64,000 nt of DNA from Devosia rhodophyticola (GTDB taxonomy: Bacteria > Pseudomonadota > Alphaproteobacteria > Rhizobiales > Devosiaceae), in the NCBI RefSeq assembly GCF_028816475.1, contig NZ_CP118247.1, positions 2,906,001 through 2,970,000 of the forward strand, in the 5' to 3' direction. The position numbers were made by a program, and so were the translations under genes. Below the pieces are notes generated by a model. That model saw only the letters and a program-made list of their open reading frames with translations, was not told the DNA's origin and did no database searches. Shown one piece after another: positions 2,289-13,421 of this stretch (positions are counted from its first letter, which is position 1; each line of letters starts with the position of its first letter).

Positions 2289-2423
2289 AGTTCGGCAACG
2301 GGTAAGGCTGCGTTAAGCACGACGCGATAGTGTCACGACGTTAGTTGTGTAATCGCGTTTTCTGTGTCCGGATTGATCTTGATCCGTTTGAGAACGCCTA
2401 ATTTGCCAGGCGGGCTGCGGTCG

Positions 2424-5400
2424 GTGAAGACTGCGTTACAGGTAGGCTGGAAAAGGGCGCGTCTTGCCCTGATTGTCAGTGTCGTCACGATGGCGGGGGC
2501 CTTGGTGTGCGCCGCGCCTGGTTGGGCGCAGGATCGCGGCCAATTGTCGGTCAGTGCCGAAAATGGCTTTGGCCGGATGATCGTCAGCTTTCGCTCCCGC
2601 ACAGATTTGCCCGCCTACAAGATCAGCAATGAAAATGGCGTGCTGTCAGTTACCTTTGATGAAGCTGCCGATGTGATCCTGCCCGATGTTGGCGGACTGC
2701 TGTCGGACTATGTCACAGCGGCGCGGGCGGATTCGGACAAGAAGGGTATCCGATTTGGTCTGCGGGCTGCGTTCGAAGTGAGCCATACCGAGGCCGACAA
2801 CCAGCTCTATATTGATCTGTTGCCGTCTGACTGGCAAGGAGCGCCACCAACGTTGCCGCAGGATGTGCAGGATCGGGTGGCGTCCAACGCCAAGGCATCC
2901 GCCAAGCAGGCAGACAGAAAGCGTAAGGCCGAAGTCGTTCGCCAGAAAAATCCGCAGGTGACGGTTCGGGTCGGCACTAATCCAACGTTCATGCGGCTGC
3001 AATTCGACTGGAGCCTTGATACCAAGGCCGATTTTTCCTTCAAGCAAAAGATAGGCGTGCTTGATTTTGAATGGCCAGTAGCAGTTGATGTCGCTGAGTT
3101 GGCATCCAGCCTGCCGCCTGAAATTGTCGATGTCAAAAATAATGTGACCGAAGACGGCAGCGACGTCATGCTCAAGTTTGCTGCCGGCGTCGAGCCCCGG
3201 TTTTATGAAGAGTCGCCGCGATCCTATACGATTGATGTCGACCTGCCTCACGCTGGGTTGCCGCCGATCACTGCACAGGCGCTGGTCGACAAGTCCGCAC
3301 CTGCGGACGACGCTGAAGCGCTGGCTGATATTTCGGGTGCCGGGGGGCAGGAGCGGCTAAAATCAGATCTCGGCGTTCTATATCCCGACACGGCGCCCGC
3401 CACGATCCAACCCTATGTCAGCATGGTCGGCACCACACTGCGCGTTGTGTTTCCTTTTGAGCAGGATACTGCGGCAGCGGTGTTTCGACGCGGCAACACT
3501 GTGTGGACAGTAATCGATACGGCGTCAGCCATCGAAGCGCCCAAGGACATGAAGGCACTTTCGGCCGTCGCGCGGGATTATTCCGTAATCTCGGGCGGGG
3601 ACACGCAGGTGGTTCGCATCGATTTGGGGCAGGACCGTCTGGCAACGCTTGGATCAGAGGGCCGCGCGTGGGTGCTTTCATTGGGCGACATGGTGCTGAC
3701 GCCGACAGAACCCATTGATCTGAAACGTCAGCGCACCGCCGAAGGCGGATATGAGATGGTGGCTGATGTCGAGCGTCCGGCGCGCGTGCACCAATTTGTC
3801 GATCCTGTCGTGGGCGATAAACTCGAGGTGGTGACGGCTTATCCACCAGCGCGCGGCATGTTGCGGGATCAGAAGTATGTCGATTTTACCGCGTTGCGGA
3901 CCGTTCATGGGCTGGCGATCAAGCCCCAGCATGACGGGGTGGATATTCAGGTTGAAAACAAGCTGGCGATCATCAGCACTGAGGGCGGATTGACGCTGTC
4001 GAGTGCGGATCAGCAACGGGCGCTGCGCACCAGTTTTGATGCAACCAACCGCTTCAGTTTCATTGATCTTGATAAATTGCTGGCAAGCGATCCTGCCCAA
4101 TATGAACAGCAGTATGACGATCTGACCGCGTCGGCCGCCAGCGCCAAGGGCAGCGCGCGCGATGCGGCGCGGTTGGATCTGGCCCAATATCAGTTGGCCA
4201 ACGGGTTTGCCTATGAAGCATTGGGCGTTCTCAGCGTTATCGGGGACAAGCCTGAAGGCAGCGAAGACCTGGTCCAGAAGGTGCGCCTGACGACGGCCAT
4301 CGCCGATACGGTCGTCAATAGATCCAGCGACGCGCTGGCAATTCTGAACAGTGCCAGGCTGGCCAATGAAGGTGATGCCTTGTTGTGGCGCACCATCGCG
4401 CGGGCTGATAGCGGCGACTATCGCGGCGCGCTCGAGGATGGGTTGGCCTCCGAGGATGTTGCGCGCAGCTATCCAGCGTGGGCCAAGAAGCGATTTACCT
4501 TTGCCGCCATTCGCGCAGCCGTTGAAACTGACGATATTGCCACCGCCCAGCGGTTGCTCGACAGCATTGATACCGCTGAACTCAACGTGGATGAAGTCAG
4601 CCAGCTGCATCTGCTGATGGGGCGCACAGACGAGCTCAAGGGCCAGGACGCCGAGGCAATCGACAATTATGGTCAGGTCATTGCCGCCGATATACGCCCA
4701 ACGCGCGCCGAAGCCATCTACCGGACAATGCTATTGCTCGACAAACAGGGCAATCTCAACCTTGAAAAGGCCACCGCCACCCTATCGGCAGAGGCCATGC
4801 TCTGGCGCGGCAATGCGCTGGAAGCCTCGATGCAGCAATTGTTGGCCAAACTCTATTTCCGTCGCGACGACTATCGGTCCGGGTTCGAAACCGTCAAACA
4901 GGCGGTGTCCGTCTATCCCGAGAGTCGGGAAATCAATGCTTTGCGCGATCAGGCGCAGCAGATTTTTGTTGATCTGTTCCTGAATGGGCAGGCCGAGGCG
5001 CTGGCACCGGTCGACGCGCTGAGCCTGTTTTACGACTTCCGGGAACTGACGCCGCCGGGGGCGCGTGGTGATGAAATGATCCGCAATCTGGCACGGCGTC
5101 TGGTCAAAATTGATTTGCTGCCACAGGCCGCCCAGTTGCTCGATTACCAGTTGAGCAATCGTCTCAAGGGTGCTGCCAAAGCGCAGGTTGCCGCTGATCT
5201 TGCCATTATTTACCTCGCTGATCGCAAGCCGCAGGACGCGCTGCGGGTACTGGGATCAACGCGGATGCCTGATCTGTCCGAGGCGCTGACGCGCCAGCGC
5301 CGGGTTCTCGAAGCACGTTCGATGATCGATGGCGGGCGGGACGAACTGGCGCTGGATTTGTTGAAGTCCATGCAGGGCAGAGATGTCGATCAACTACGTG

Positions 5401-5798
5401 TTGATGCGCATTGGCGCGCCAAGCGCTACGGCGATGCAGCGGAATTGCTCGAAACCATGTATGCGCCCAATGATCAGCCATTGAGCCAGCCAGCCCGCAT
5501 GAATGTCATCAAGGCGGCCGTTGGTTATGTGCTGGCGGGTGACCGGTTGGGGCAATCGCGCCTGCGGGCCAAATTTGCCGAAGCAATGGTGACGGCGCCC
5601 GAATGGCCGATGTTTGATTATGTGACCGGCACGATTACCACCGACAGTCTTGAGTTCAAGAAGGTGGCGAGCGCGGTTTCGGGTTTGGACGGCCTTAGCT
5701 CATTCCTTGCCGCTTACCGCGAAACCTATGGCACCGACGGGGCGATGGTGCCGCCGCAAGCTGCCCGGGCGGAAACCAAGGTGGCGGGTGCGGGTTAG
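2424..5798 (+). CDS. Large exported TPR protein of flagellar cluster
   Basis: From the GTG at 2424 the protein is about 1,124 residues with a Sec-type signal peptide ending near APGWAQD. An alternative GTG at 2364 gives a long N-region that looks less like a signal peptide. The first 550 residues are beta-rich and of unknown fold. The second half is helical with TPR-like repeats (AQYQLANGFAYEALGVL, RGALEDGLASEDVARSYPAW, KLYFRRDDYRSGFETVKQAV). It follows motE by about 135 bases and meets fliP tail to tail with a 4-base overlap. Proteins of this size and position occur in other alphaproteobacterial motility loci; I infer a periplasmic or outer-membrane motility role without knowing it. Confidence 0.7.
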   Translation: MKTALQVGWKRARLALIVSVVTMAGALVCAAPGWAQDRGQLSVSAENGFGRMIVSFRSRTDLPAYKISNENGVLSVTFDEAADVILPDVGGLLSDYVTAARADSDKKGIRFGLRAAFEVSHTEADNQLYIDLLPSDWQGAPPTLPQDVQDRVASNAKASAKQADRKRKAEVVRQKNPQVTVRVGTNPTFMRLQFDWSLDTKADFSFKQKIGVLDFEWPVAVDVAELASSLPPEIVDVKNNVTEDGSDVMLKFAAGVEPRFYEESPRSYTIDVDLPHAGLPPITAQALVDKSAPADDAEALADISGAGGQERLKSDLGVLYPDTAPATIQPYVSMVGTTLRVVFPFEQDTAAAVFRRGNTVWTVIDTASAIEAPKDMKALSAVARDYSVISGGDTQVVRIDLGQDRLATLGSEGRAWVLSLGDMVLTPTEPIDLKRQRTAEGGYEMVADVERPARVHQFVDPVVGDKLEVVTAYPPARGMLRDQKYVDFTALRTVHGLAIKPQHDGVDIQVENKLAIISTEGGLTLSSADQQRALRTSFDATNRFSFIDLDKLLASDPAQYEQQYDDLTASAASAKGSARDAARLDLAQYQLANGFAYEALGVLSVIGDKPEGSEDLVQKVRLTTAIADTVVNRSSDALAILNSARLANEGDALLWRTIARADSGDYRGALEDGLASEDVARSYPAWAKKRFTFAAIRAAVETDDIATAQRLLDSIDTAELNVDEVSQLHLLMGRTDELKGQDAEAIDNYGQVIAADIRPTRAEAIYRTMLLLDKQGNLNLEKATATLSAEAMLWRGNALEASMQQLLAKLYFRRDDYRSGFETVKQAVSVYPESREINALRDQAQQIFVDLFLNGQAEALAPVDALSLFYDFRELTPPGARGDEMIRNLARRLVKIDLLPQAAQLLDYQLSNRLKGAAKAQVAADLAIIYLADRKPQDALRVLGSTRMPDLSEALTRQRRVLEARSMIDGGRDELALDLLKSMQGRDVDQLRVDAHWRAKRYGDAAELLETMYAPNDQPLSQPARMNVIKAAVGYVLAGDRLGQSRLRAKFAEAMVTAPEWPMFDYVTGTITTDSLEFKKVASAVSGLDGLSSFLAAYRETYGTDGAMVPPQAARAETKVAGAG

Positions 5799-6610
5799 CC
5801 CGTTGTAAAACTGCGCACCAGCGATCCGGCGACCAGATACCAGCCGTCGACCAGAACAAAAAAGATGAGCTTGAACGGCAGTGAAATCACCACTGGTGGC
5901 AGCATCATCATGCCCATCGACATCAATACCGATGCGACAACCATGTCGATGACCACGAACGGCAGGAACAGCAGAAAGCCGATTTCAAAGGCGCGCCGCA
6001 GTTCCGAGATCATGAATGCGGGGATCAGCAGGGTCAGCGGGACGGCATCCGGGCTTTCGGGTGGCGGTGTGTCGGTTAGTTCATAAAAGAGTGACAGATC
6101 CTTTTCGCGTACATTGGCCTGCATGAATTTGTGGATGGGCACGCTACCCGCGTCGAACGCCTCGCCAATCTCCATGTCGCCGGCAAGCAACGGCTGAATG
6201 CCCAAATTGTAGGTCTGCTCCAGCGTGGGCGTCATGATAAAAATGGTTAGAAACAGCGCCAGCGACACCATGACCGAATTGGGTGGTGCACTTTGAAGGC
6301 CAATTGCTGTGCGTAGTAGCGAGAGCACGACCACAATACGGGTAAAGCTGGTCACCATCACCAGAATTGACGGGGCCAGCGCCAGAATGGTGATCAACCC
6401 GATGAGCTGAACGGCTCGTTCAGTCAGGGTGGTGTCGCTGCCGAAATCGATCGACACGTCCTGTCCAAAGGATATGCTGGGGGCCAGTGCCATACCGACG
6501 AAAACGGCCAGCCCAGCCCAGAAGGCGAAACGACCGTGCTTAGTTGCGGTCGGCGCTGTAGCCCTTGTCGTCGATGTGGCTGCCGGAGTCGTCAACTTGC
6601 GGACGCCCAT
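5795..6610 (-). CDS. fliP: Flagellar export apparatus protein FliP
   Basis: FliP forms, with FliQ and FliR, the export gate of the flagellar type III secretion system. The sequence shows a cleavable signal region (FAFWAGLAVFVGMALAPS), the conserved SFTRIVVVLSLLRTAIGLQ segment, and PFKLIFFVLVDGWYLV near the end, with about four membrane helices. The start is unsure: no ATG precedes the signal region closely, so the ATG at 6610 (inside the fliO 3' end) or a TTG at 6595 are candidates. Length of about 271 is slightly above usual because of this N-terminal overhang. It is co-transcribed with fliO and converges on the TPR gene. Confidence 0.9.
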   Translation of the reverse strand: MGVRKLTTPAATSTTRATAPTATKHGRFAFWAGLAVFVGMALAPSISFGQDVSIDFGSDTTLTERAVQLIGLITILALAPSILVMVTSFTRIVVVLSLLRTAIGLQSAPPNSVMVSLALFLTIFIMTPTLEQTYNLGIQPLLAGDMEIGEAFDAGSVPIHKFMQANVREKDLSLFYELTDTPPPESPDAVPLTLLIPAFMISELRRAFEIGFLLFLPFVVIDMVVASVLMSMGMMMLPPVVISLPFKLIFFVLVDGWYLVAGSLVRSFTTG

Positions 6611-7250
6611 TCTGCTCAGTGGAAGTATTAACAGCTTCTTTAACTGAGTCGGCGGCCTGACCATTGGTCTTTTCTGCGGGAAGCGCCGTGGGCTCCACTT
6701 TACTAACAGGTCGCATCAGTCCGGTCTGGCGAACCGAGGTGGGGTTTTTGGCGCTCGAGGGCCGTCGCAGTTCGCGCAAGCGATCCAACGGCGACACTTT
6801 CGGGGTTGTGGCTACCGGTGCGGGGGCATGGCCCAAAGTGGACTGCTGATTGGCGGCAACGCCGGGCGATTTTGCGGTGGTCGCCGTCGGACGACCAGCA
6901 GTTTTGTTGGCCACGATATTGGGCAGAGGGCGGCGGCTGGTCACATTTTGTGGGGTTTCGGAGACCGGGATGCCGGTTTCAACGACAACGTCCTGCGGGC
7001 CACCGGTCAAAAGAAGGTGTTCAACATTGTCGCGGCGGATGATGACGAGCTGTCGCTTGGGGTCAATTGCCAGCGTATCAACAACCAGCAGGCGTCGATT
7101 TCGGCCGCGGGCGACATTGCTCGATGCCTTGAATAGCATCTTTAAAGCCCATAGCCCCAATACGATCAGCACCAGCACGATGCCAAGGGCGAAGATCGAT
7201 GTCAGAACGGAATTACCCGAGCCGCCAAACAGGCTGGTTATGAATTGCAA
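6540..7250 (-). CDS. fliO: Flagellar biosynthesis protein FliO
   Basis: FliO assists assembly of the FliP ring of the export gate. It has one N-terminal membrane helix (SIFALGIVLVLIVLGLWALK) followed by the short FliO domain (NRRLLVVDTLAIDPKRQLVI and VEHLLLTGGPQDVVVE). The C-terminal half is a proline/threonine-rich, probably disordered tail, common in alphaproteobacterial FliO. Its last 70 bases overlap the probable start of fliP. The gene diverges from flgB, sharing the 175-base region that contains the CtrA box. Confidence 0.85.
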   Translation of the reverse strand: MQFITSLFGGSGNSVLTSIFALGIVLVLIVLGLWALKMLFKASSNVARGRNRRLLVVDTLAIDPKRQLVIIRRDNVEHLLLTGGPQDVVVETGIPVSETPQNVTSRRPLPNIVANKTAGRPTATTAKSPGVAANQQSTLGHAPAPVATTPKVSPLDRLRELRRPSSAKNPTSVRQTGLMRPVSKVEPTALPAEKTNGQAADSVKEAVNTSTEQNGRPQVDDSGSHIDDKGYSADRN

Positions 7251-7281
7251 CGCGTTTACTCCACTACGATACGCCAGGTAC

Positions 7282-7299
7282 CCGGCACTTATTGCCTAT
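7282..7299 (+). promoter_or_regulatory. ftr-like palindrome, copy A
   Basis: GGCA-N5-TGCC inverted repeat inside CCGGCANNNATTGCCTAT. Fifteen of 18 bases equal copy B about 93 bases downstream, in the same orientation. It resembles, from memory, the ftr elements bound by the flagellar regulator FlbD in Caulobacter. It sits on the fliO side of the divergent fliO/flgB region. Confidence 0.5.
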
Positions 7300-7352
7300 T
7301 TAGCCTCAAGAACATGCAAATTGCGAGACAAAGCTCCGCTAACGCGTTCAAG

Positions 7353-7367
7353 TTAATAGTTGATTAA
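7353..7367 (+). promoter_or_regulatory. CtrA binding site (TTAA-N7-TTAA)
   Basis: A perfect TTAA-TAGTTGA-TTAA followed by CC, matching the CtrA consensus TTAA-N7-TTAA(C). It lies 59 bases before the flgB start, where CtrA would act on flagellar promoters. The gene for CckA, the kinase at the head of the CtrA phosphorelay, ends the same cluster. Confidence 0.65.
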
Positions 7368-7374
7368 CCATACC

Positions 7375-7392
7375 CCGGCAAGAATTGCCTAT
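7375..7392 (+). promoter_or_regulatory. ftr-like palindrome, copy B
   Basis: Second GGCA-N5-TGCC palindrome with the same flanks as copy A, placed 7 bases after the CtrA box and about 34 bases before the flgB start. The position fits an operator near the flgB transcription start. I saw no sigma-54 promoter of GG-N10-GC spacing beside it. Confidence 0.5.
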
Positions 7393-7425
7393 CGGAAGGC
7401 GAGTCTGCCAAGGAGTATTCGAGCC

Positions 7426-7830
7426 ATGGGCATCATGAACATGCCGATATTTACAGCGCTAACCGACAAGATGCGCTGGCACCAAGCGCGTCAAGGTCTA
7501 TTGGCAGAAAATGTCGCAAATGCGGAAACGCCAGGTTACCAGGGGCGGGATCTGGCCCAATATAATTTTGCCGATCATTTGGGCGGCGGTTCGAGCGCAA
7601 CGATTAGTGTTACAGCGACCCAACCGATGCACATTTCAGTCGGTGGCGACACAAGCGCCGCCTTTGGTGCCCAGCGAATGAACAGCTTTGAGGTTACCCC
7701 TGAAGGCAATGCGGTGTCGCTGGAAGACGAAATGATGAAGGTCACGACAAATATGAGTGACTATCAGGCGGTCACCTCAATCTATCAGAGTTCGATGAAA
7801 ATCCTGCGCACCGCGATGGGGCGGTCGTGA
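7426..7830 (+). CDS. flgB: Flagellar basal-body rod protein FlgB
   Basis: FlgB is a proximal rod subunit. The ATG at 7426 is chosen because AGGAGT lies about ten bases upstream; a longer frame from 7360 has no ribosome site. The rod signature is MRWHQARQGLLAENVANAETPGYQGRDL near residues 15-45 (seen as a continuous family-like run) and the C-terminus YQAVTSIYQSSMKILRTAMGRS forms the second coiled-coil half. At 134 residues it has normal length. It leads the flgBC-fliE-fliQR-flhB run. Confidence 0.93.
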   Translation: MGIMNMPIFTALTDKMRWHQARQGLLAENVANAETPGYQGRDLAQYNFADHLGGGSSATISVTATQPMHISVGGDTSAAFGAQRMNSFEVTPEGNAVSLEDEMMKVTTNMSDYQAVTSIYQSSMKILRTAMGRS

Positions 7831-7848: not shown

Positions 7849-8262
7849 ATGAGTGACTTCAACTCATCCCTAAAAATCGCCGCCACGGGTCTTCATGCAC
7901 AGACAGCGCGCATGCGTGTCATTGCTGAAAATCTGGCCAATGTTGATTCTGCGGGCAAGACGCCGGATGAGGACCCCTATCGGCGTCGCATTCCGACGTT
8001 CAAGACGGAGTTTGATGCGCAGGCGGGCGGTAATATCGTGGAAGTGGGCAAGCTTGCCTATGACATGAGCGATTTTACCACCCGGTTTGAACCGGGCCAT
8101 CCGGCGGCGGATCCGCAAGGCTATGTCAAATATCCCAACATCAATCCACTAATTGAATCGATGGATATGCGCGAAGCCCAGCGCACCTATGAAGCCAATT
8201 TGAACGTGGTGACCGTTACCCGGCAGATGCTGGGACGGACTTTGGATATCTTGCGCAGCTAG
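7849..8262 (+). CDS. flgC: Flagellar basal-body rod protein FlgC
   Basis: FlgC is a proximal rod protein that stacks on FlgB. It has the N-terminal rod motif LKIAATGLHAQTARMRVIAE followed by NLANVDS, and the C-terminal MDMREAQRTYEANLNVVTVT. Length 137 is normal. It starts 19 bases after flgB. Confidence 0.94.
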   Translation: MSDFNSSLKIAATGLHAQTARMRVIAENLANVDSAGKTPDEDPYRRRIPTFKTEFDAQAGGNIVEVGKLAYDMSDFTTRFEPGHPAADPQGYVKYPNINPLIESMDMREAQRTYEANLNVVTVTRQMLGRTLDILRS

Positions 8263-8281: not shown

Positions 8282-8605
8282 ATGGCAATTCCATTTAACG
8301 CCGCCGCGGCTGCTTACGGCAACGCATCCAAGCTGATTTCCCAGACTGCAAAGCCGGGTACCGACATCGTGGCGAAGGCCGATCAGGGCAATGATTTTGC
8401 CAATATGTTGGCTCAATCGGTGCAGGATGTGGTCGATACTGGCAACAAATCGGACAAGATGGCTATGGATATGGTCAATGGCAAAGCCAATGTCGTGGAC
8501 ATGGTCACGGCGCTGTCCCAAACCGAATTAGCCATCGACAGCATGGTTTCGGTTCGCGACAAGGTCATTTCGGCGTATGAAGAGATCATGCGTATGCCGA
8601 TCTGA
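8282..8605 (+). CDS. fliE: Flagellar hook-basal body protein FliE
   Basis: FliE links the MS ring to the rod. The 107-residue protein carries the family C-terminal half: DVVDTGNKSDKMAMDMVNGK, then DMVTALSQTELAIDSMVSVR and KVISAYEEIMRMPI. It lies 20 bases after flgC and 19 before fliQ, in operon. Confidence 0.93.
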   Translation: MAIPFNAAAAAYGNASKLISQTAKPGTDIVAKADQGNDFANMLAQSVQDVVDTGNKSDKMAMDMVNGKANVVDMVTALSQTELAIDSMVSVRDKVISAYEEIMRMPI

Positions 8606-8623: not shown

Positions 8624-8890
8624 ATGAGCGGCGCTGAAGTTCTCGATATTGCGACCGACAGCATCTGGGTTTTGATCATTGTTTCGCTGCCGATGATGCT
8701 GGCAGGGTTGTTGGTCGGCGTGGTCATTGCACTGTTTCAGGCGCTGACCCAAATTCAGGAACAGACGTTGGTCTTTGTTCCAAAGATTCTGGCAATCTTT
8801 GTAACTCTATTGATTACGTTGCCTTTTTTGGGCTCCACCATGGGGGCCTATATGAACCGCATCGTCGATCTGATCATCATCGGCGGCTAG
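8624..8890 (+). CDS. fliQ: Flagellar export apparatus protein FliQ
   Basis: FliQ is a two-helix gate component of the flagellar secretion system. Its 88 residues show the two hydrophobic hairpins (WVLIIVSLPMMLAGLLVGVV and ILAIFVTLLITLPFLGSTMG) joined by ALFQALTQIQEQTLVFVPK, a conserved loop of the family. The gene ends one base before fliR. Confidence 0.95.
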   Translation: MSGAEVLDIATDSIWVLIIVSLPMMLAGLLVGVVIALFQALTQIQEQTLVFVPKILAIFVTLLITLPFLGSTMGAYMNRIVDLIIIGG

Positions 8891-8891
8891 G

Positions 8892-9659
8892 GTGGCGCTC
8901 AGTCTAAATTGGCTGCCCGATGTTGCCTATATCTACATTCTGCTATTCATGCGGATAGGTGCCATCTTGATGCTGATGCCCGCGCTGGGCGAGCAAATGA
9001 TCCCGGCCCGTATGCGGCTCAGTTTCGCATTGGCATTCACGCTGGTGCTCTATCCCTTGCTGGCCAAGGTCATGCCGCCGATGCCAACGCAGTTTCCTGC
9101 TCTGTTGGCAATCGTGTTCCACGAGATTGCAGTTGGACTGATTATCGGGGCGGTGACACGCATCACGGTGATGGCAACGCAGGTGGCTGGGGCTGTGATT
9201 GCTTTTCAGTCCGGGTTGAGTGCTGCGCAGGTCGCCGATCCCACGCAAAACGGGGTGCAGGGGGCTGTGATCGGTTCGTTCCTGTCGTTCGTTGGCGTCA
9301 CCTTGATATTTGCCACCAATCTCCACCACGTGGCGCTGGCGGCTATATACGACAGTTACATGGTGTTTTTGCCGACCGAGCCGCTGATGCTGGATGATGC
9401 GGCGCAACTGGCGATCCGAACGGTTTCGCATGCTTTTACAATTGGGGTGCAGATGTCGGCGCCGTTTATCGTTTTCGGGTTGGTGTTTAACCTTGGCGCG
9501 GGGATTTTGGCGCGCCTGATGCCGGCTTTGCAGGTGTATTTTCTCTTGATGCCTGCTAACATTCTGGTCGGATTGGTGCTGTTTGCATTGCTGCTCACCA
9601 TGATGATGGGATGGTATATTTCGGCGTTCGAAGACCATCTGGCGATGTTACGAGGCTGA
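8892..9659 (+). CDS. fliR: Flagellar export apparatus protein FliR
   Basis: FliR joins FliP and FliQ in the export gate. It begins with GTG immediately after the fliQ stop. Six or so membrane segments are visible, with the family features MRIGAILMLMPALGEQMIPA, GLIIGAVTRITVMATQVAGA and VFGLVFNLGAGILARLMPAL. Length 255 is normal. flhB starts three bases after its stop. Confidence 0.95.
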   Translation: MALSLNWLPDVAYIYILLFMRIGAILMLMPALGEQMIPARMRLSFALAFTLVLYPLLAKVMPPMPTQFPALLAIVFHEIAVGLIIGAVTRITVMATQVAGAVIAFQSGLSAAQVADPTQNGVQGAVIGSFLSFVGVTLIFATNLHHVALAAIYDSYMVFLPTEPLMLDDAAQLAIRTVSHAFTIGVQMSAPFIVFGLVFNLGAGILARLMPALQVYFLLMPANILVGLVLFALLLTMMMGWYISAFEDHLAMLRG

Positions 9660-9662
9660 CAC

Positions 9663-10757
9663 ATGTCCGATGAAGCCCCCGAACAGTCCAGTAAAACCGA
9701 AGACCCCTCCTTTAAAAAGCTCGAGGACGCTCGCAAAAAAGGCGATGTGGTCAAAAGCCAGGAAGTGACCACTTGGTTCATGCTGGGTGGAACAACGGCG
9801 CTTTTTGGTTTCATGGCACCGGGTGCCAGCGCGGGGCTGGCAAATTCCCTTAAGGAAATTTTCGCCAACGCTGATCAATTCGAGATCGGCGGCGCAGCGC
9901 TTCAGGCTTTTTTCAACGGTTTGGCCCTGCAATTGATCTTGATTGTGTTGGGGCCGCTGCTGGTTTTGTCGCTGTGTGCGATTGCCGCCAATCTGCTCCA
10001 ACACCCGCCGCTGCTTTCGGTTGAGCCGATTACCCCGAAATTGAGCAAGATCTCGCCGCTTGCTGGCGCCAAACGGCTGTTTTCCGGCGAAGCTCTGGTC
10101 AATTTCATCAAAGGCGTGCTGAAACTTTCAATCGTTGGCGCCGTGGTCGCGATAACTGTCTGGCCGGAGCAAGACCGGCTTTCGACCCTGATGACGGCTG
10201 ATCCCGCCATCATCTTGGGAGAATTTCAGGAAATCGGGTTGAAAATACTGATCGCGGTGTTGGCGGTTGTAACTATCATCGCTTTCGCCGATTTTCTCTA
10301 TATGCGCCAAAAATGGTGGAAACGTCAGATGATGACGGTTCAGGAAACGCGCGACGAATACAAACAGATGGAGGGTGATCCGGCGGTCAAGGGCCGAATT
10401 CGGCAGTTGCGGCAGGAGCGGGGGCGTCAACGGATGATGGCTTCGGTGCCTGATGCGACTGTCATTGTTACCAACCCGACCCACTTTGCTGTCGCCCTCA
10501 AATACGACAAGTCAATGAAAGCGCCGCTTTGCCTTGCAAAAGGTGCCGACGCGATTGCCCTGCGCATTCGAGAGATTGCCAAGGAAAACGATGTGCCCAT
10601 CGTTGAAAATCCGCCCCTCGCTCGAGCCTTGTTTGCCAGCGTCGAAATTGATCAACCCATACCCAGCGAGCACTTCAAGGCGGTGGCCCAGGTCATCGGC
10701 TTTGTGATGCGTTTGCGTGATAATCGTGGATGGACGCCAGGCAATTCGGTAAACTAG
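9663..10757 (+). CDS. flhB: Flagellar export switch protein FlhB
   Basis: FlhB controls substrate switching of the export apparatus by autocleavage. The N-terminus SSKTEDPSFKKLEDARKKGD is typical, four membrane helices follow, and the NPTH self-cleavage motif is at residues 271-274 inside VIVTNPTHFAVALKYDK. Length 364 is normal. It closes the flgB-flhB run; cckA begins 93 bases later. Confidence 0.96.
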   Translation: MSDEAPEQSSKTEDPSFKKLEDARKKGDVVKSQEVTTWFMLGGTTALFGFMAPGASAGLANSLKEIFANADQFEIGGAALQAFFNGLALQLILIVLGPLLVLSLCAIAANLLQHPPLLSVEPITPKLSKISPLAGAKRLFSGEALVNFIKGVLKLSIVGAVVAITVWPEQDRLSTLMTADPAIILGEFQEIGLKILIAVLAVVTIIAFADFLYMRQKWWKRQMMTVQETRDEYKQMEGDPAVKGRIRQLRQERGRQRMMASVPDATVIVTNPTHFAVALKYDKSMKAPLCLAKGADAIALRIREIAKENDVPIVENPPLARALFASVEIDQPIPSEHFKAVAQVIGFVMRLRDNRGWTPGNSVN

Positions 10758-10850
10758 CCATTAACTCTCCCAAGGCGGTAGGCCATTTGGTAGAGCTTTA
10801 GTATTGTTTGATTCGGTTATTTTGATCCGTATCCCGGAGCACACGCATTC

Positions 10851-13421
10851 ATGGCTGCAACCCCGCTTGGCGAGGACACCTATCCAGAACCGCTGCAAAC
10901 GCGCGAACGTGGTAACGCCGGATTGTGGCGCGTCGTTGCATTGAGCATCAGTCTGGTGGTTATTGCCGCCGTCTTTTCCTTTTACGGCGAGAATATTCCT
11001 GCTGACGTAACGCTGACCTTTGTCGGTCTGTTGGCTGTGGCAGGGGTTTTCTGCCTGTTCGGACTGGCGGCGGGTCTGTTCAAATTCGCCAATGGCGAGG
11101 AAAAGCGCACAGTTTCCCGAGCGCTGGTCGACAGCCTGCCTTATGGCGCAGTTGTTGCCGATCGTGATGGCAAGATCTCCTACGTCAACGCCCATTACGG
11201 CACCTTTTCCGGCGCCATGGTCAACGGCGTTCCGGTTGGCGTATCGCGGCTTTTTGCGGGGCAATCTGAAGCGAGCGAAGCGGTTTATCGCCTGTCTCGC
11301 GCGGCAAAGGATGGACGCACCGCCATTGAAGATATCCGCCTGATTGGTGGATTGGGCGGTTCGCATACCGATAGCAGCCGTCCGTTCTGGTATCGGGTTG
11401 CAATTAGGCCATTGCCGGAGGTTGACGGTGGCCGCAAGCCGCTTCTGGTCTGGTCGGTCGAAGATATCACGCGGGACCGCGAAAACAATGAGAGCGCCTT
11501 CCGCGATCTGCAGCGCGCCATTGATTATCTTGATCATGCCCCGGCGGGGTTCTTTTCCTCGGACGCGCACGGGCGCATTCAATATCTCAATTCCACCCTG
11601 AGTGATTGGCTGGGTTATGACCTGGCTGAGTTCAACTCGGGCCAATTGAGCCTTGGCGACATTGTGCGCGGCGACGGCGACAGCCTCCTCATGCGCGGTC
11701 GCGGCGATGGCGAGATCGGCACTGAAATCATCGACATTGATTTGGTGCGCAGCAATGGCACCGCGTTCCCCGTGCGCTTGTTGCATCGCGCGGCCCGCAT
11801 GGCCGAAGGCGAGTTGGGCGAAACCCGGACGCTGGTTCTGGATCAAAGCAGCGCGCCCGACAGCGAAGAAGAATTGCGGGCAGCCGAGGTGCGGTTTTCG
11901 CGGTTCTTCAACGACACGCCATTTGCGATTGCGACGCTTGATACCAATGGCCGGATCGTGCGCACAAATGCCCCGTTCAGCCGCATTTTCAAATGGTCGG
12001 GTGAACAGAAGAGCCTCGAATTGCAACCGCTGGCCGATCTCATCGGGGAGGGGAGCCGCGAACGTCTGGCCAAGGCGATCGTTAACGCAGGGGCCCAGCA
12101 ATCGGTCATCGAGCCGGTTGATGCTCTGTTGACCGCCGAAGGTGATCATGCGGTTCGGCTTTATATTTCCGGGTCGGAAATGAGTGCGGGGTCGCCCGAA
12201 CGGGTCAATGTCTATGCGCTGGACATGACCGACCAGCGCAAGCTTGAGGCCCAGTTTGCCCAAAGCCAGAAAATGCAGGCCGTTGGCCAGTTGGCGGGTG
12301 GTGTTGCGCACGATTTCAACAATCTCTTGACGGCAATCATCGGGTTCTCCGACTTGTTGCTGCTCAAGCACAAGCCGGGTGATCCCTCGTTTTCCGAATT
12401 GATGCAGATCAAGCAGAATGCCAATCGCGCTGCCGGGTTGACCCGGCAATTGCTGGCATTTTCGCGTCGACAAACCCTGCGGCCACAGGTGCTGGAACTG
12501 TCGCTGATCGTTGATGATCTGACCGTGCTGCTAAAACGCATGATTGGTGAAAAAATCAATCTGGGCGTCGATCATGGGCGCAATATCTGGCCTGTTCGCG
12601 CCGATGTGGTGCAGTTGGAACAGGTTATCATCAATCTGGTGGTCAACGCGCGCGATGCGATGCCCGGTGGTGGCGCCATCACCATTCGCACCAGCAATGT
12701 AACGGCCGCGGAAACCGAGAAATTCGACTTTGAAGGCATGGTTGCCGCCGACTATGTGCTGATCGACGTGCAGGACACCGGCACAGGCATGTCCGCCGAA
12801 GTGCTGGACAAGATTTTTGAGCCGTTCTTCACCACCAAGGATCTCGGCAAAGGCACCGGGTTGGGGCTGTCGACTGTTTACGGGATTATCAAGCAGACCG
12901 AAGGGTTTATCTATCCGGTCTCGGTGATCGGGGTTGGTACGACCTTCAAGATTTTCTTGCCGCGCCATATTCCAGCAGTCAATGAAATTACCGCCAAGGG
13001 TCCGGCGGCAACGCCAGTTCGCGACCTAACGGGACACGAGCGTATTCTGCTGGTTGAAGACGAGGAAAGTGTCCGCAATTTCTCAGCGATGGCGCTTCGC
13101 ACCACAGGCTATGAAGTTTTTGAGGCGGACGGGGGAGAAGAGGCTCTCGAAATTCTTGAGGATGAGAACTTTGAAATCGATTTGATGGTTTCGGACGTGT
13201 TGATGCCCGAAATGGACGGACCAACCCTGCTTAAGCACGTGCGCAAGAAGATGCCGACGCTTAAGGTGATTTTCGTGTCCGGCTTTGCCGAAGACAGCGT
13301 CCGCCGCGATATCGAGGACGACCAGAGTGTTGAATTCCTGTCCAAGCCCTATTCGCTCGATCAGATCAATTCCAAGGTCAAGGAAGTGCTACAGGCCGCG
13401 TTGCGTGGCAGTCAGGAATGA
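10851..13421 (+). CDS. cckA: Hybrid histidine kinase CckA
   Basis: CckA feeds phosphate through ChpT to the master regulator CtrA (and CpdR), controlling cell cycle and, in many alphaproteobacteria, motility. From the N-terminus: two membrane helices (about residues 24-77), PAS-like domains, a HisKA domain with GGVAHDFNNLLTAIIGFSD (phosphorylated His near 487), a HATPase domain (DTGTGMS about 642; GTGLGLSTVYG about 668) and a receiver domain with the acceptor Asp near 782 in VSDVLMPEMDG. The 856-residue length suits the family. Placing it after flhB, with a CtrA box at flgB, hints that this locus is controlled by its own phosphorelay. Confidence 0.92.
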   Translation: MAATPLGEDTYPEPLQTRERGNAGLWRVVALSISLVVIAAVFSFYGENIPADVTLTFVGLLAVAGVFCLFGLAAGLFKFANGEEKRTVSRALVDSLPYGAVVADRDGKISYVNAHYGTFSGAMVNGVPVGVSRLFAGQSEASEAVYRLSRAAKDGRTAIEDIRLIGGLGGSHTDSSRPFWYRVAIRPLPEVDGGRKPLLVWSVEDITRDRENNESAFRDLQRAIDYLDHAPAGFFSSDAHGRIQYLNSTLSDWLGYDLAEFNSGQLSLGDIVRGDGDSLLMRGRGDGEIGTEIIDIDLVRSNGTAFPVRLLHRAARMAEGELGETRTLVLDQSSAPDSEEELRAAEVRFSRFFNDTPFAIATLDTNGRIVRTNAPFSRIFKWSGEQKSLELQPLADLIGEGSRERLAKAIVNAGAQQSVIEPVDALLTAEGDHAVRLYISGSEMSAGSPERVNVYALDMTDQRKLEAQFAQSQKMQAVGQLAGGVAHDFNNLLTAIIGFSDLLLLKHKPGDPSFSELMQIKQNANRAAGLTRQLLAFSRRQTLRPQVLELSLIVDDLTVLLKRMIGEKINLGVDHGRNIWPVRADVVQLEQVIINLVVNARDAMPGGGAITIRTSNVTAAETEKFDFEGMVAADYVLIDVQDTGTGMSAEVLDKIFEPFFTTKDLGKGTGLGLSTVYGIIKQTEGFIYPVSVIGVGTTFKIFLPRHIPAVNEITAKGPAATPVRDLTGHERILLVEDEESVRNFSAMALRTTGYEVFEADGGEEALEILEDENFEIDLMVSDVLMPEMDGPTLLKHVRKKMPTLKVIFVSGFAEDSVRRDIEDDQSVEFLSKPYSLDQINSKVKEVLQAALRGSQE

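Follow-up and report, generated by a model that had tools for sequence, protein, structure and literature searches.

The region between the divergent flagellar genes fliO and flgB of Devosia rhodophyticola carries two regulatory motifs side by side, which raises the question whether one promoter is under two regulators and, if so, in which direction the second one acts. We addressed this question in the window, by which we mean the whole stretch of 64,000 nucleotides analysed here and to which all positions refer, in the host genome and in related bacteria.

The motifs between fliO and flgB

A reading based on the sequence only had described a perfect TTAA-N7-TTAA box of the CtrA type, followed seven bases later by a GGCA-N5-TGCC palindrome of the FlbD (ftr-like) type. 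Both motifs are exact: the CtrA box TTAATAGTTGATTAA lies at 7353-7367 on the plus strand and is followed by CCAT, and the palindrome GGCAAGAATTGCC, to which no strand is assigned, at 7377-7389. The gap, in contrast, measures nine bases (CCATACCCC), so that the start-to-start distance from box to palindrome is 24 bases. We designate the box by its exact match and by its placing relative to the palindrome, which is kept in relatives, and the palindrome by its pattern, the conservation of the pair and its association with FlbD. Both motifs are situated between the starts of fliO (7250) and flgB (7426), and 73 bp separate the flgB start from the 5' end of the box.

The genes behind this promoter agree with the earlier description of rod and export genes. 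On the plus strand flgB (7426-7830; NF004654, above cut-off) opens a run that continues with flgC (7849-8262), fliE (8282-8605), fliQ (8624-8890; PF01313), fliR (8892-9659) and flhB (9663-10757), with flgC, fliE, fliR and flhB named by family matches. The same strand then carries cckA (10851-13421; NF046020, 1248 bits against a cut-off of 1000), which encodes the kinase heading the CtrA phosphorelay. On the minus strand, the divergent fliO (6540-7250) is a weak family match under its cut-off and is followed by fliP (5795-6664, family match), whose closest named relatives are FliP proteins of Devosia genomes (84 % for L011). Between fliM and fliP lies a frame of 1144 residues (2364-5798) that matches no NCBIfam family and in Pfam gives only a weak TPR hit under the threshold.

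Taken singly, each motif is weak evidence and could be there by chance. TTAATAGTTGATTAA is the sole TTAA-N7-TTAA in the window (0.21 expected; at least one in 20 of 100 shuffles), and GGCAAGAATTGCC is one of eight GGCA-N5-TGCC palindromes (2.49 expected; eight reached in 1 of 100 shuffles). Further copies of both motifs, for which the earlier reading had proposed a genome-wide search, are indeed present: we counted 27 full boxes in the host genome versus 57 with the reversed-pattern control, and 210 palindromes versus 45. Two clusters stood out in passing. A gap between divergent frames holds three full CtrA boxes in a stretch of 73 bp (L218:2484-2556; host C1 about 1661983-1662055), and the divergent gap between flgF and fliL (L094:16031-16087), a further crowded control region of flagellar genes, has two palindromes 14 bp apart together with a one-mismatch CtrA box.

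The full box near the predicted -35 of an early flagellar operon places the flgB promoter with class II flagellar promoters. A sigma-54 (class III/IV) promoter is not indicated, as we found no -24/-12 element (GG-N10-GC) on either strand of 7250-7426; the palindrome itself was considered as such a promoter and rejected, its GG and GC being 8 and not 10 apart. From the position of the box, the -10 and start-site region is predicted at 7377-7399 on the plus strand. The classical promoter reading sets 17 bases between TTAACC and the -10 element, and with this spacing the palindrome would fall between -35 and -10. In Caulobacter, an activating role is ascribed to a CtrA box whose 5' base is at -39 (PMC4287350), and if the box at flgB starts at -39, the palindrome would extend from about -15 to -3. 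Under either placement it is inside the predicted core promoter.

A second palindrome, GGCACTTATTGCC (7284-7296, no strand), which the earlier reading does not mention, lies beside fliO, 93 bp from the one at 7377-7389 and without a CtrA box of its own. We rejected it as part of a mirror-image CtrA/FlbD promoter for fliO, because a search of the gap that tolerated one mismatch found no further box. In 6 of 64 flgB loci of relatives, too, an exact palindrome lies upstream of the box, at varying distance.

Conservation of the pair in relatives

For comparison we took 80 fliP loci and retained the 64 in which flgB was found, leaving out 16 without a flgB match. Of these 64 alphaproteobacterial loci, 23 have an exact box and an exact palindrome ahead of flgB, as against none of 200 dinucleotide-shuffled sets; the start-to-start distance is 25 bp in 21 loci and 24 bp in two. 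When up to two mismatches in the left half-box and one in the palindrome were allowed, the pair was present in 34 of the 64 flgB upstream regions and lacking in 30. Counted at any distance and in either order, the 64 loci hold 34 box-palindrome pairs; the palindrome is downstream in 26 of them, 23 of which are spaced at 24-25 bp.

The same arrangement recurs beyond these loci. Across the order, the pair with a spacer of 7-11 bases was found in 116 of 249 genomes, compared with 2 matches for the reversed control (relatedness being ignored in these counts). The spacer, tallied in 55 of the order-wide places, is 10 bases in 35, 8 in nine, 7 in six, 9 in four and 11 in one, and the spacing is thus near-fixed but not absolute. 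In a class-wide draw, the exact pair (spacer 9-11) occurred in 7 of 289 genomes and its control in none; six of the seven encode FlbD over the cut-off, and the seventh (G180) has no FlbD match. Within the host genome alone, a half-box followed by the palindrome after 8-12 bases is not enriched (2 matches versus 4 in the control); both matches are flagellar promoters, and before fliX the genome has its second exact pair, whose spacer is 8 bases long. The box and palindrome pair is not a product of chance, because it is conserved with near-fixed spacing in relatives, above both shuffles and reversed control.

We inspected the gene context of 30 loci out of well over 100 order-wide places with the pair, and all 30 are flagellar neighbourhoods. 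The pair faces flgB in 15, flhA in ten, flgI in two, and fliO and fliX in one each; the remaining locus adjoins flbD, with the pair before a gene outside the reference set, and one of the 15 flgB-facing loci carries a second pair facing fliO. This recurrence before flagellar genes suggests one shared on/off design. In four Caulobacter flgB promoters (L043, L046, L061, L064) the box is present and other sequence stands in place of the palindrome, and the model genus therefore looks like an exception at this promoter. Several Brevundimonas flgB promoters have the palindrome and a worn left half-box.

FlbD, sigma-54 promoters and the fliF parallel

The lack of any flbD-like gene would have spoken against a second regulator of this kind, and we found a full-length FlbD of 455 residues in the host genome (NF050807, 802 bits, cut-off 750) that retains the GAFTGA motif. 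Its gene sits in the run fliF-fliG-fliH-fliN-flbD-flhA, in which fliG is named by position. In addition, the genome encodes CtrA (NF045991, 427 bits, cut-off 350), sigma-54 (RpoN) and FliX (PF10768, 118 bits, cut-off 25; its NCBIfam score of 92 is under the curated cut-offs), so that CtrA control is represented by ctrA and cckA, and FlbD control through ftr sites by flbD, fliX and rpoN. A further sigma-54 activator of 506 residues, encoded on the minus strand (L095:1275-2795; host C1 about 2300275-2301795), scores under the FlbD, NtrC and NtrX cut-offs; a full CtrA box lies some 43 bp ahead of its start.

The pair tends to occur together with FlbD. Among the 249 genomes, 133 encode an FlbD that passes the cut-off, and 110 of these hold the pair, compared with 6 of the 116 without, a contrast for which the Fisher test ignores shared ancestry; the other 23 FlbD genomes do not have the exact pair. 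As for the six, FlbD scores just under the cut-off in G452, partial matches lie at contig ends in G409 and G510, and in G385, G424 and G529 the pair is present with no FlbD match visible.

FlbD activates late flagellar genes in Caulobacter, a kind to which fliK and flgE belong. We found that the palindrome of the flgB promoter is shared by sigma-54 promoters of late flagellar genes of the host, being placed 108 bp upstream of a -24/-12 element, recognized by its sequence pattern, at fliK and 86 bp upstream at flgE, the latter named by its best match, which is under the equivalog cut-off. These are positions at which an activator of the FlbD type is expected to bind. At this flgE-like gene (L196:12254-12368), a half palindrome is located close behind the full one. 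The fliK gene is classified as class III in Caulobacter (PMC3096577). Across the order, a palindrome followed 80-110 bp on by a sigma-54 element occurs in 61 of 249 genomes and in 6 with the reversed control; the matches outside the host are counts, not individual inspections, and several may be due to chance. This combination is likewise more frequent with FlbD (54 of 133 genomes) than without (7 of 116), shared ancestry being ignored. The use of one site both upstream of sigma-54 promoters and within CtrA promoters is in keeping with a sigma-54 activator that has a repressing role too. The palindrome resembles in this respect the ftr enhancers of FlbD-activated class III/IV promoters in Caulobacter, although flgB, unlike those genes, has no sigma-54 element here.

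The closest known counterpart is the fliF promoter of Caulobacter, which combines a CtrA site with ftr4, the site through which FlbD represses this class II gene in C. crescentus (PMC3930126; PMC3096577). The earlier reading, which has FlbD acting later and on ftr sites, therefore gives an incomplete picture, since FlbD is also described as a repressor of early genes such as fliF (PMC3930126). We compared fliF at 17 loci in 16 genomes reached via named loci; of 20 FliF-family matches, the three with low scores (L215-L217) were set aside. In 13 of the 17, a palindrome with at most one mismatch begins exactly 25 bases after the start of a one-mismatch box, and this geometry is present in eight of nine Caulobacter and Brevundimonas loci, Caulobacter segnis FS (L212) among them. 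The four loci without the arrangement are that of a Caulobacter MAG, two of Bradyrhizobium, which have the palindrome and no such box, and a second fliF copy in one of these Bradyrhizobium strains. The host fliF promoter itself carries a box and a palindrome, each with one mismatch and 25 bp apart, and a perfect palindrome further upstream.

The flgB promoter thus shares with Caulobacter fliF a box, a palindrome downstream and a near-equal geometry. It differs in the gene controlled, in the start-to-start distance (24 here, 25 there) and in the palindrome, which is perfect here, whereas the three Caulobacter fliF loci with a palindrome read GGTA in its left arm. From Caulobacter flgB it differs by having a palindrome at all. 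In the fla2 system of Rhodobacter sphaeroides, the divergent flgB2/fliI2 intergenic region likewise has a flgB promoter that depends on CtrA (PMC6180460), but the divergent partner is another one, and the paper describes no second site of the ftr type: the words ftr and FliX do not appear in its main text.

Proposed control of flgB

We consider it likely that CtrA switches on the early flgB operon and that FlbD, once active, shuts flgB off by covering the core promoter. The flgB promoter would belong to the early flagellar promoters (class II type) and carry two operators whose arrangement is near-fixed. CtrA bound to the box over the -35 region would recruit RNA polymerase for transcription of flgB-flgC-fliE-fliQ-fliR-flhB; FlbD bound to the core-promoter palindrome just downstream of the box would block further initiation, a block that would set in once the early structure has been built and FliX lets FlbD act. 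With a single type of site, FlbD could serve as an activator from about 100 bp upstream of sigma-54 promoters, as at fliK and flgE, and as a repressor inside the CtrA promoters of flgB, fliX and fliF, with flbD itself downstream in the fliF run. Direct observation covers the two motifs and the conservation of their spacing, the presence of a gene for every player, the association of the pair with FlbD and the sigma-54 context; from these we infer binding, the start site, repression, its timing and the control by FliX. Our comparative evidence supports, with FlbD as the candidate, the earlier suggestion that CtrA and a second regulator act at one promoter.

That suggestion had left open whether the second regulator blocks or boosts. 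We favour repression over activation at flgB because of the predicted core-promoter position of the site, the match to the fliF geometry and the known repression of Caulobacter fliF by FlbD, all of which lean towards blocking. FlbD might nevertheless activate flgB or be neutral there. Co-activation with CtrA would agree with the activating role of FlbD elsewhere, but we regard it as improbable: the promoter lacks a GG-N10-GC element in 7250-7426, the palindrome is inside the predicted core promoter, and the loci of Caulobacter fliF, a class II gene that FlbD is described to repress (PMC3096577; PMC3930126), show equal geometry.

An unusual -10 or spacer element that CtrA-type promoters need, with no second regulator bound to it, would also account for the near-fixed spacing to the box and the overlap with the expected -10 region. 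We judge this account to be quite improbable: the palindrome is probably an FlbD site rather than a promoter element, because the same palindrome precedes sigma-54 elements, a position in which a -10 would make no sense, and, moreover, it is missing beside the CtrA box of Caulobacter flgB and its presence tracks FlbD. It is very improbable that another regulator recognizing the same half-site uses the palindrome; the genome does encode further sigma-54 activators, among them the one at host C1 2300275-2301795 with a CtrA box upstream, but the pair tracks FlbD, the sole regulator examined for association, whose gene lies in the flagellar cluster and whose partner FliX is present. Chance neighbourhood, for which it could be said that each motif alone is unremarkable genome-wide, is hardly credible given the conservation and spacing of the pair, and both the shuffled sets and the reversed-pattern control refute it.

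Activation by CtrA followed by shut-off through FlbD is a logic already known from Caulobacter fliF. What is new here is its predicted extension to flgB, fliX and flhA, the near-fixed spacing and the lack of the palindrome at Caulobacter flgB. In the literature searched, which covers few subscription papers, we found no description of the arrangement at flgB or in Hyphomicrobiales, nor of the flhA and fliX extension, the near-fixed spacing or the signature given below; for example, the main text of a study of the Hyphomonas CtrA network mentions neither FlbD nor flgB (PMC7200025), and PMC12363192, in the text available, mentions FlbD only as an ntrX homologue. The two-operator design of CtrA and FlbD may be common to early flagellar promoters (flgB, flhA, fliX) of FlbD-bearing Hyphomicrobiales, and the genome signature TTAA-N7-TTAA, about 10 bases, GGCA-N5-TGCC could serve to locate promoters of this type, as well as FlbD regulons, in relatives that have not been cultured.

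Finally, the same control may extend to the cell cycle. FlbD could possibly trim CckA because cckA follows flhB in the run, and if cckA is co-transcribed, FlbD feedback would reach the cell-cycle kinase through the flgB run, a proposal that we put forward as tentative and on balance doubtful. CtrA would then raise the level of its own kinase, and FlbD, as a signal that the early flagellum has been built, would lower it. If true, the CckA-CtrA circuit would thereby include a checkpoint on flagellum assembly, whose FlbD arm is absent from the Caulobacter flgB promoter. In the window, flhB and cckA share a strand and lie 93 bp apart (10757-10851). A CckA match (at least 37 % identity) was estimated to lie 6-203 bp behind flhB in 20 of 51 loci that have flgB and flhB; 14 of the 51 gave no CckA match, some of them for lack of sequence.
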